This document shows, piece by piece, positions 11,547 through 39,806 of a stretch of 42,416 bases of DNA (its first letter is position 1; every line of letters begins with the position of its first letter). This DNA is from Bacillota bacterium. Lineage in GTDB: Bacteria > Bacillota_I > Bacilli_A > RF39 > UBA660. A program made the position numbers and the translations under genes. The stretch is taken from assembly GCA_015059425.1 (NCBI GenBank), contig SVAM01000011.1, positions 1 through 42,416 of the forward strand, given 5' to 3'. Below the pieces are notes generated by a model. That model had not been told where the DNA came from. It did no database searches and worked only from the letters and a program-made list of their open reading frames with translations.

Positions 11547-12020
11547 TTAGCTTGAATCTATGATTATACTATTTGAAGATTTAAACAATCGTTCAGTAGG
11601 TCCAGTAGGTCCTTGGGGAATTGTTAAGTTAAGAACAAAGTTAGGCGCTGTACCAGTTATTGATGCAGTAGCTTCAGTTCCAGGGTCTCCTGTTGTAACA
11701 GTTCCAATAGTTAAGGTAGGAGTTTCTGCATCTACTCCAGCAGGTCCAGTAGCTCCAATCGGTCCAGTAGCCCCAGTAGGTCCAGTAGCACCAGTAGGAC
11801 CCGTAGCCCCAATAGCACCGACTTCACCTTGAATACCTTGTAATCCTTGAGGTCCAGTAGGACCAGTTGGCCCAGTAGGCCCAGTAGGTCCAGTTGGCCC
11901 TCCAGCAGGTCCAGTAGGTCCGGTTGCACCTGTAGGCCCGTAACAACAACATCCTCTGTTAGGATGTTCTTTATTGTAACAATCAATAATTTGTTGTGCT
12001 CTTCTTAAATTACTATCCAT
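11547..12020 (-). CDS. Collagen-like Gly-Pro-Thr repeat protein (BclA-like), short
   Basis: 157 residues. The N-terminus [20 protein letters not shown] and a CCC cluster are followed by collagen-type Gly-X-Y triplets dominated by GPT/GAT, an interruption ([18 protein letters not shown]) and a short tail ending in [10 protein letters not shown]. Such proteins form triple helices on spore or cell surfaces and are usually glycosylated on Thr. The GAAAGGAGT site before the ATG is strong. Most relatives I know have a longer globular C-terminal domain; here translation stops soon after the last GPT, so the gene may be C-terminally truncated beside the accessory block. Codons are GC-richer than in neighbours, as the repeats require. 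Confidence 0.8.
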
Positions 12021-24152: not shown

Positions 24153-24262
24153 AAGTAAAATAAGTAGCTATGATTAGGCAGACATTAGCCCTAACGCTCA
24201 AGTTATTATTTTAAAAATAAAATTTATAAATATCAAGAAAAAGCGTATGATAAAATTTGACA
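24153..24262 (+). repeat. Intergenic repeat, copy A (upstream of ADP-ribosylglycohydrolase gene)
   Basis: About 110 bp nearly identical to 25260-25370. Components: small hairpin TTAGG/CCTAA, the stretch CCTAACGCTCAAG, an AT-rich palindrome, an ACGCT/AGCGT outer pairing, and TTTGACA (24256-24262) at the end. The first 0A-like box is degenerate here (TATGATA). A 14-codon frame, MIRQTLALTLKLLF, lies at 24170-24214. The downstream promoter TGTTATAAT (24266-24274) follows at once. Confidence 0.75.
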
Positions 24263-24294
24263 TTATGTTATAATTTATATTAGGAGTGATATTA

Positions 24295-25074
24295 ATGTGG
24301 GGAGCAATTATTGGAGATTTAGCAGGCTCAATATATGAATTTGAACAATATAAAAAAGTTACTAAAATTAATATAAATAATTTAATAGAAGAAAATAGTT
24401 TTTTTAGTGATGATACTATTTTAACTGTTGCGGTATTAGATGCTATATTAAATGATTGTGATTACGAGCAATATTTAAAAGAATATGCTACAAAATATAT
24501 GATTTATAAACCAGACTTTAATCCATATTTTAAAACACCTTTTTCTCCGGGTTTTACAAAATGGGTTAATAGTGATGAAATAGGTTATAGTACTGGTAAT
24601 GGAGCAATGATGAGAGTATCAGCAGTAGGATATTTATTTGACAATGAAGAAGATATTATTAAACATGCTAAATTAGCAACAATATCATCTCACAATACAG
24701 AAGAAGCAATAAATTGTGCTACGATTGTAGCAATGGTTATTTATCTGGCACGTAAAGGGTTAAGTAAAGAACAAATAATAGAAAAGTTAAATTTAAAAAT
24801 TATTTATCAAGGGTTTATCAAATTTAATAGTACTTGTAATGAAACTATAAATAATTGTTTATATGCTTTATTTACTTCTAATAGTTTTAATGAAGCTTTA
24901 ACTAAAGTAATTTCATATGGTTGAGATACTGATACTAATGCCTGTATAGTAGGAGCTATGGCAGAAGCTTTATATGGTATAGATAATATATTAATAGAAG
25001 AAGCAAAAAGGAGAATACCTGAAGAATTTATTAGAAAATTAGAACTTGGGTATTCAAAAATTGAATTGTATTAA
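24295..25074 (+). CDS. ADP-ribosylglycohydrolase, interrupted by an in-frame TGA
   Basis: Family member by MWGAIIGDLAGSIYEFEQ, FSDDTILTVAV (metal-binding Asp pair), NGAMMRVSAVG and SHNTEEA; it removes ADP-ribose from proteins or small molecules. The ATG at 24295 follows AGGAGTG. Translation meets TGA at 24922-24924, after 209 codons, exactly inside the second metal motif: the frame reads G-TGA-DTDTNACIVGAMAEALYG and stays open for 49 more codons to a TAA at 25072. In relatives I remember Gly before DTDT (GGDTDT), so GGA to TGA is the simplest change. It may be a nonsense mutation, a sequence error or a recoded codon; if TGA stops, the product lacks ligand Asp residues and should be inactive. 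Confidence 0.8.
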
Positions 25075-25084
25075 AAACATAAAT

Positions 25085-25094
25085 ATGTTAAAAT
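25085..25094 (+). promoter_or_regulatory. Extended -10 promoter of the small RNA at 25101
   Basis: ATGTTAAAAT holds TGTTAAAAT (extended -10, 25086-25094). The same ten bases begin the related locus at 39631-39640. Confidence 0.5.
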
Positions 25095-25100
25095 TAAATA

Positions 25101-25176
25101 GGTAGAGCGTTAGGCTCCAATCTAATGCCTACTTTCTTTTGGAAGAGACACTAATTGTTATAACTAGTGTCTTTTT
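25101..25176 (+). ncRNA. Candidate ~76-nt small RNA antisense to a 29-residue peptide frame
   Basis: It starts about 7 nt after an extended -10. A 5' hairpin pairs GTAG with CTAC and GTTAG with CTAAT (loop GCTCCAAT). A linker and a strong terminator follow (AGACACTA/TAGTGTCT, 11-nt loop, 25146-25172, then T5). The layout is the same as the unit at 15677-15740. Its 3' half is complementary to the coding part of the minus-strand peptide frame at 25129-25218. It may equally serve as the terminator region for the preceding gene. Confidence 0.45.
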
Positions 25177-25218
25177 AAATATTCTAGGTAAAATTACTTT
25201 TACTTGAACCTTCATCAT
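25129..25218 (-). CDS. Candidate 29-residue basic/hydrophobic peptide (type I toxin-like), tentative
   Basis: Minus-strand frame with a very good ribosome binding site (AAAGGAGTG, 9 nt before two adjacent ATG codons). The peptide begins MMKVQVKVILPRIFKK, continues TLVITISVS and ends SKRK before a TAG. A short hydrophobic core flanked by Lys/Arg is typical of type I toxins. The + strand carries a promoter-hairpin-terminator unit overlapping its 3' part, as an antitoxin RNA would. No clear promoter for the peptide was found, and the frame lies within a repeat-type locus, so expression is uncertain. Confidence 0.3.
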   Translation of the reverse strand: MMKVQVKVILPRIFKKTLVITISVSSKRK

Positions 25219-25259
25219 ATCACACTCCTTTAACTTAACCAAAACCCTAAGGAGTAAAG

Positions 25260-25370
25260 GAAGTAAAACAAGTAGTTATGATTAGGCAGACATTAGCCCT
25301 AACGCTCAAGATAATATTTTAAAAATAAAATTTTAAAATATCAAGAAAAAGCGTTCGACAAAATTTGACA
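25260..25370 (+). repeat. Intergenic repeat, copy B, with tandem Spo0A-box-like heptamers
   Basis: Best-preserved copy of the family. Hairpin TTAGG/CCTAA, then an outer pairing AACGCT/AGCGTT enclosing a palindrome (GATAATATTTTAAAA against TTTTAAAATATC). It ends in TTCGACA (25354-25360) and TTTGACA (25364-25370), heptamers starting 10 bp apart. TTCGACA is the reverse complement of the Spo0A box TGTCGAA. A 14-codon frame MIRQTLALTLKIIF lies at 25278-25322. Immediately upstream of the PFOR promoter. Confidence 0.75.
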
Positions 25371-25379
25371 TTTAAATAA

Positions 25380-33106: not shown

Positions 33107-33126
33107 TTTAGAAAGTGAGATTGATT

Positions 33127-34266
33127 ATGAATATATTAGTAATACCAAGTTGGTATCCTAACGGCACTGATAAATTAATGGGTATTTACCATAAAGAGTT
33201 TAGTGCTGCTTTAGCAAACAGAAAAGACATAAATGTGAATATGTTATATATTGATAGGCAAAGATTAAATGCTCCTATTAAATATTTATTTATGAAAAAG
33301 AATGAAATAATAGAAGAAACGGGTTATAAAACTTATATAAAAAAAATGTTAGATGTTCATAAAATAAATTTTGATTGGCAAATGAAAAGATATTATAAAG
33401 TATTAGAGAAAGCTTTTAAATTATATTTAAAAGATAATCCTAAACCTGATGTTTTGCATGCACATGTAACACTTCCGGCGGGGTATGCAGTAGCTAAGTT
33501 AGGTAAAAAATATAATATTCCAGTAGTAGTAACTGAACATGCAAGTTATTTTAAAAGATTTTTTGAAGGAAAAAACAAAAAATATGGAGATTATGTTCTT
33601 GGAAATAGTTATTTTACAACAGTTAGCAATTTTATGGCTAAAGAAATAAATAAATTAGGATATAAATGTGATATTATTCCAAATTTAGTAGATACAGATA
33701 TTTTTGTTAAAGATAGAAAAAAAGTGAAAGAACTTAGAATCGTTACAGTTTCTGCTTTGCGTGATGGAAAAAGAATTGATGATATAATAAAGGCTTTAAA
33801 AATAATTGTGGAACAAGGGAAAATTAAAGATATTGAATTAACTATTATTGGTGATGGCTTTTTAGAAAATTATTATAAACAAACATGTAAAGAATTAAAT
33901 ATGGATAAATATGTAACTTTTGTTGGTAGAAAAACAAAGGAAGAAATATCAGATATATTATTTCAAAATAATGTTTTTGTTATTGCTAGTGAAATGGAGA
34001 CTTTTTGTATTCCGGGTGTAGAAGCACTAGCTAGTGGTATTCCAGTTGTTGCTACTAGATGTTTAGGGCCAGAAGAATATATTAATGATAGATGTGGGAT
34101 TTTAGTAGATGTTGGCGATTATAAAGCTATGGCAGATGCAATTGTCCAAGTATACAATAATTCTGATAAATACGATATTTCTTACATGAGAGGGGTAGCA
34201 TCTAATTATGCTAGTAAGTCTGTAACTGATAAAGCAATAAAGATTTATAAAAAAATAAATAAATAA
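33127..34266 (+). CDS. GT-B fold glycosyltransferase (family 4-like)
   Basis: 379 residues. N-terminal domain opens ILVIPSWYPNGTDKLMGIYHKEF and contains HAHVTLPAGYAVAKL; the C-terminal donor-binding domain has IVTVSALRDGKRIDDIIKAL, IIGDGFLENYY, VTFVGRKTKEEISDIL and the ExxxxxxxE-like CIPGVEALASGIPVVATRCLG. It transfers a sugar from a nucleotide donor to a surface polysaccharide or lipid acceptor, probably at the inner face of the membrane. Start at 33127 rather than the GTG at 33115, because the strand ILVIPS starts directly after it; the ribosome binding site (AAGTGAG) is moderate. No other polysaccharide genes adjoin it. Confidence 0.88.
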   Translation: MNILVIPSWYPNGTDKLMGIYHKEFSAALANRKDINVNMLYIDRQRLNAPIKYLFMKKNEIIEETGYKTYIKKMLDVHKINFDWQMKRYYKVLEKAFKLYLKDNPKPDVLHAHVTLPAGYAVAKLGKKYNIPVVVTEHASYFKRFFEGKNKKYGDYVLGNSYFTTVSNFMAKEINKLGYKCDIIPNLVDTDIFVKDRKKVKELRIVTVSALRDGKRIDDIIKALKIIVEQGKIKDIELTIIGDGFLENYYKQTCKELNMDKYVTFVGRKTKEEISDILFQNNVFVIASEMETFCIPGVEALASGIPVVATRCLGPEEYINDRCGILVDVGDYKAMADAIVQVYNNSDKYDISYMRGVASNYASKSVTDKAIKIYKKINK

Positions 34267-39630: not shown

Positions 39631-39778
39631 ATGTTAAAATAAATTTGAGCGTTAGGTATAGGTAAAATATTAAGTTTTAGGAGTTAGTATTGAAATGAAA
39701 TTTGTCCTAACGCTCAAGATAATATTTTAAAAATAATAATTTAAAATATCAAGAAAAACCGTTCGACAAAGTTCGACA
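39631..39778 (+). repeat. Intergenic repeat, copy C: 12-bp inverted repeat, palindrome and two perfect 0A-like boxes
   Basis: Begins with the same ATGTTAAAAT as 25085-25094, then TTGAGCGTTAGG (39645-39656), which pairs perfectly with CCTAACGCTCAA (39706-39717) across 49 nt. The AT-rich palindrome follows, then TTCGACA at 39762-39768 and again at 39772-39778, exactly 10 bp apart. It matches 25085-25370 with ~134 internal bases missing. An 11-codon frame MKFVLTLKIIF at 39695-39730 has AGGAG upstream and shares its last seven codons' sense (LTLKIIF) with copy B. Confidence 0.75.
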
Positions 39779-39806
39779 CTTAGTTTGATAAAGTTATTTT
39801 ATAGAG

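Follow-up and report, generated by a model that had tools for sequence, protein, structure and literature searches.

A probable recent nonsense mutation in the metal motif of an ADP-ribosylglycohydrolase gene from an uncultured gut Bacilli genome

Results

An ADP-ribosylglycohydrolase gene interrupted by TGA

The window, by which we mean the whole 42,416-nucleotide stretch that was analysed, carries an ADP-ribosylglycohydrolase gene whose frame is cut once, by a TGA within the metal-binding motif. The features of this gene are the following:

24295..25074, + strand: ADP-ribosylglycohydrolase gene cut by a single in-frame TGA (259 codons, with the TGA counted, and a final TAA)
24922..24924, + strand: premature TGA at codon 210, in place of the second Gly of GGDTDT; the orthologues have GGN (Gly)
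24925..25071, + strand: the 49 codons 3′ of the TGA, which remain conserved by identity to two congeneric orthologues and include the metal ligands DTDT

The TGA is present in the sequence and shares its frame with the ATG at 24295. Beyond it the frame runs on for 49 codons and closes with a TAA at 25072-25074. The sequence around codon 210 reads ...VISYG, TGA, DTDTNACIVGAMAEALYG, and the DNA 3′ of the TGA still codes for DTDT. When read through the TGA, the frame matched the Pfam family ADP_ribosyl_GH (PF03747) with 114 bits (cut-off 26.2), which places it within this family. Under the standard code, in turn, translation halts at the second position of the motif, and the product does not contain GxDTDT. 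No lesion besides the TGA was detected in the gene. These observations bear out the initial annotation, which had described a TGA in the metal motif of an otherwise intact ADP-ribosylglycohydrolase, followed by an open frame of 49 codons that completes the motif and shows no other damage.

Conservation of codon 210 and of the downstream codons

Glycine occupies position 210 in 29 of 32 homologues, encoded by GGA, GGC, GGT or GGG, and the remaining three have Asp, Gln and Glu (one each); neither a stop nor Trp occurs at this codon in any of the 32. The two closest points of reference are the congeneric orthologues G012 and G015 (68% and 65% identity), which have no stop and display GGC and GGT at codon 210, respectively, within GGDTDTNACIVGS. 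Across 296 genomes of the class, one of 35 family matches had an internal stop, namely the interrupted gene itself, and the other 34 had none. The ancestral codon was presumably GGA, from which a single G-to-T change yields TGA.

The codons after the TGA are as well preserved as those before it. Identity to the two congeneric orthologues was 76% and 63% after the TGA versus 67% and 66% before, and dN/dS was low on either side (about 0.18-0.26), a comparison of little power for the short downstream segment, in which 46 codons were compared. Where four other close sequences are invariant, the interrupted gene deviated at 6 of 82 sites before the TGA and at 1 of 16 after it, no more than its relatives do.

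The distribution of this gene is patchy, with an orthologue in only two of the 24 congeners searched. A distant family member is encoded in the same genome (C5:82985), and displays GQDTDT without a stop. Meanwhile, a degenerate-pattern search of wider collections of genome contigs and viral contigs found no relatives of the interrupted gene.

Release factors and the prfB frameshift site

The genome is a draft of 1.148 Mb in 18 contigs, 95.7% complete and 2.7% contaminated. It encodes two class I release factors:

C7:26451-27452: RF1
C17:101785-102780: RF2 (prfB), 458 bits against a prfB model cut-off of 370

The RF2 translation contains the SPF and GGQ motifs and is undamaged. Its start region reads GGGAGGTCTCTTTGACATT, in which the upstream frame VDKGIIDGLTNIKGRVIDIGRSL closes at a TGA, and a +1 shift at CTT-TGA-C leads into the 331-codon body of RF2. 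This arrangement is the well-known autoregulatory frameshift of prfB. Such a frameshift requires that UGA be a stop for which RF2 competes. The identical site was found in four congeneric prfB genes, and across the genus, 31 genomes out of 36, this one among them, had a prfB above the cut-off. Thus, the intact prfB and its retained frameshift site give no sign of loss of RF2 or of its recognition of UGA, as recoding would entail.

Stop codon use and transfer RNAs

We analysed stop codon use in the window plus fifteen further stretches, which together make up 341 kb or about 30% of the genome. Among 311 non-overlapping open reading frames of at least 100 amino acids, 234 ended in TAA, 62 in TAG and 15 in TGA; the latter comprise 14 other genes and the interrupted gene itself. 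Several TGA-ending genes match known families almost to the last position: a FabG-like reductase to 235 of 236 of PF13561, RimM to 165 of 166 of TIGR02273, GerA to 464 of 466, and the Ger(x)C protein (GerAC) to 370 of 371. Judged by the extent of these matches, the TGA codons of all four are genuine gene ends. TGA is read as an ordinary stop in this organism.

The spore germination genes GerA and GerAC lie at L058:16357-18866 (minus strand) of this 1.15 Mb genome. Their occurrence in an uncultured Bacilli lineage suggests that it can form spores.

The initial annotation had counted 31 TAA, 4 TAG and no TGA stops in the window, a tally that is right in substance, as the other 33 called open reading frames of at least 100 amino acids end in TAA (29) or TAG (4) and never in TGA. 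The weight that it gave to this absence does not hold at the scale of the genome. TGA ends about 5% of the genes outside the window, so none in 35 has a chance of about 0.16 and is unremarkable: a small-sample effect.

A search with RF00005 retrieved 33 tRNA matches in the genome. ARAGORN identified one tRNA-Trp, with the anticodon CCA, and among the 33 matches from this draft it identified none with a UCA anticodon. The best match to tRNA-Sec (selC) reached 39.8 bits, below the gathering score of 47, and corresponds to a tRNA-Ser(UGA) gene; thus the search provided no selenocysteine tRNA. As no tRNA-Tyr was seen either, the draft probably misses at least one tRNA gene, and arguments from absent tRNAs are weak on their own for this reason. 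The evidence from RF2 and from TGA stops is independent of them.

A scan for other interrupted genes

As a control, the 341 kb were scanned, with the aid of codon usage, for stops with coding sequence on both sides in a single frame. This produced seven TGA cases, one of which is the ADP-ribosylglycohydrolase gene. The case at L050:2518-2520 resembled a second in-frame TGA, and reads as a gene end, with the putative GTG start of the next gene (VGQYYKFINL...) directly behind it in the same frame; the protein of this next gene has no Pfam match. The five further cases are shadows of genes on the opposite strand. Most look-alikes with TAA or TAG were pairs of neighbouring genes, the second of which starts shortly behind the stop of the first, as judged by eye and without confirmation of each. 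The ADP-ribosylglycohydrolase gene was the only conserved gene found to be cut by an in-frame stop in the 341 kb. Recoding would leave in-frame TGAs throughout the genome, and the scan therefore counts against it. A recoded TGA would be missing at gene ends and occupy conserved internal sites; here it terminates 14 other genes and is internal to a single conserved one.

Dispersed repeats and other features of the window

The interrupted gene is flanked by two copies of a dispersed intergenic repeat, of which these copies were located:

24153..24264, + strand: copy upstream of the interrupted gene
25261..25372, + strand: copy downstream of the interrupted gene, 92% identical to the upstream copy
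39669-39780 of the window, L062:5229-5348 and L057:8738-8810: further copies

The repeat spans about 75-110 bases (CCTAACGCTCAAG...ATCAAGAAAAAGCGTTCGACAAA-TTTGACA), and occurs in about ten copies in this genome. Matches to it were found in 30 genomes of the genus out of 36, a count that includes this one; Rfam contains none at the gathering score. At its end lie TTCGACA-like motifs spaced by about ten bases, which in our reading resemble Spo0A boxes. A larger unit occurs at positions 25086-25372 of the window and at L062:5229-5524 (minus strand), in which GAGCGTTAGGCT...AATGCCTAC lies about 175 bases ahead of the repeat, in the same order at both places. The unit has inverted ends (GAGCGTTAGG / CCTAACGCTC), like those of a small mobile element that encodes no protein.

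Elsewhere in the window, positions 11547-12020 (minus strand) encode a collagen-like repeat protein whose DNA repeats with a period of 9 bases, and positions 33115-34266 a glycosyltransferase with relatives in uncultured gut Bacilli, including Candidatus Caccenecus avistercoris.

Discussion

Based on these findings, we propose that the Gly codon of GGDTDT was recently converted into TGA by a nonsense mutation, a reading to which we assign a probability of roughly 0.74. One G-to-T change would have turned Gly codon 210 into TGA, and RF2 would terminate translation there, as suggested by the RF2 gene and the use of TGA stops in this genome. The result would be a 209-residue protein that lacks DTDT. 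In this family (ARH3, DraG), DTDT carries ligands of two Mg2+ ions. Because these metal ligands are missing, the truncated product is most likely inactive, and the gene would be non-functional. Since the gene is otherwise undamaged, the change must be recent on the evolutionary scale, if it is not an error. The interrupted gene is thus a probable young pseudogene.

A very young mutation and an error would both account for a gene with no other lesion at all, and this is where the main competing explanation lies. The TGA might be a consensus error, or a polymorphism of a minor strain fixed into the metagenome-assembled sequence, with the gene intact in the living population. The draft state of the genome, with its 18 contigs and its measured contamination, is compatible with this, as are the undiminished conservation after the TGA and the single-base step from GGA. 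However, substitution errors are rare in polished assemblies, and such an error would have to hit a codon that one substitution can turn into a stop. We consider this explanation rather unlikely, though worth keeping in view, and infer that the base at 24922 is real in the population.

The two ways of decoding the TGA as an amino acid fare far worse. Ribosomes might pass UGA 210 with the help of a local signal or of the near-cognate tRNA-Trp(CCA), or insert selenocysteine there, and so make a full-length enzyme; read-through frequent enough to yield some active enzyme would amount to a kind of regulated switch. The open and conserved frame past the TGA would agree with this, but no tRNA-Sec rose above the Rfam threshold, the relatives have Gly rather than Cys at the site and TGA in none, and a bulky residue within the metal motif would be unusual; local decoding is very improbable. 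As for a genome-wide reassignment of TGA to Trp or Gly, the lack of TGA stops among the genes of the window is what speaks for it, and we regard it as next to impossible. The initial annotation had offered it beside a nonsense mutation or a sequence error, and had named prfB, UCA-anticodon tRNAs and TGA counts as the places where recoding would show. There, the genome instead displays an intact RF2 with its own UGA-dependent frameshift site, a CCA tRNA-Trp with no UCA tRNA found, and TGA at the ends of about one gene in twenty with one conserved internal TGA in 341 kb. Of the options it had listed, recoding falls, and a nonsense mutation from a Gly codon agrees with the GGN codons of the orthologues.

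A recent nonsense mutation in the ADP-ribosylglycohydrolase gene is ordinary biology and involves no altered genetic code. That the genome of an uncultured gut Bacilli lineage has one probable young pseudogene is in itself of little consequence. The case illustrates that, in an AT-rich genome, the lack of one stop codon from a single window counts for little as evidence of recoding, a question which RF2 and its frameshift site settle quickly.

This genome is reminiscent of bacteria that read TGA as Trp (code 4) or as Gly (code 25), being likewise small and AT-rich with few TGA stops. Unlike in those bacteria, RF2 is present, TGA is a stop, CCA is the only tRNA-Trp anticodon, and the 341 kb sample has no other in-frame TGA. 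The encoded protein itself conforms to the ADP-ribosylglycohydrolase family (PF03747; ARH3, DraG), as also indicated by PDB sequence matches to ARH3 and DraG obtained with an intact congeneric orthologue as query: the N-terminal SDDT, GNGAMMR and the C-terminal GxDTDT follow each other in the order kept by the family. It differs in its own frame, which a TGA cuts where intact congeners have the second Gly of GGDTDT.
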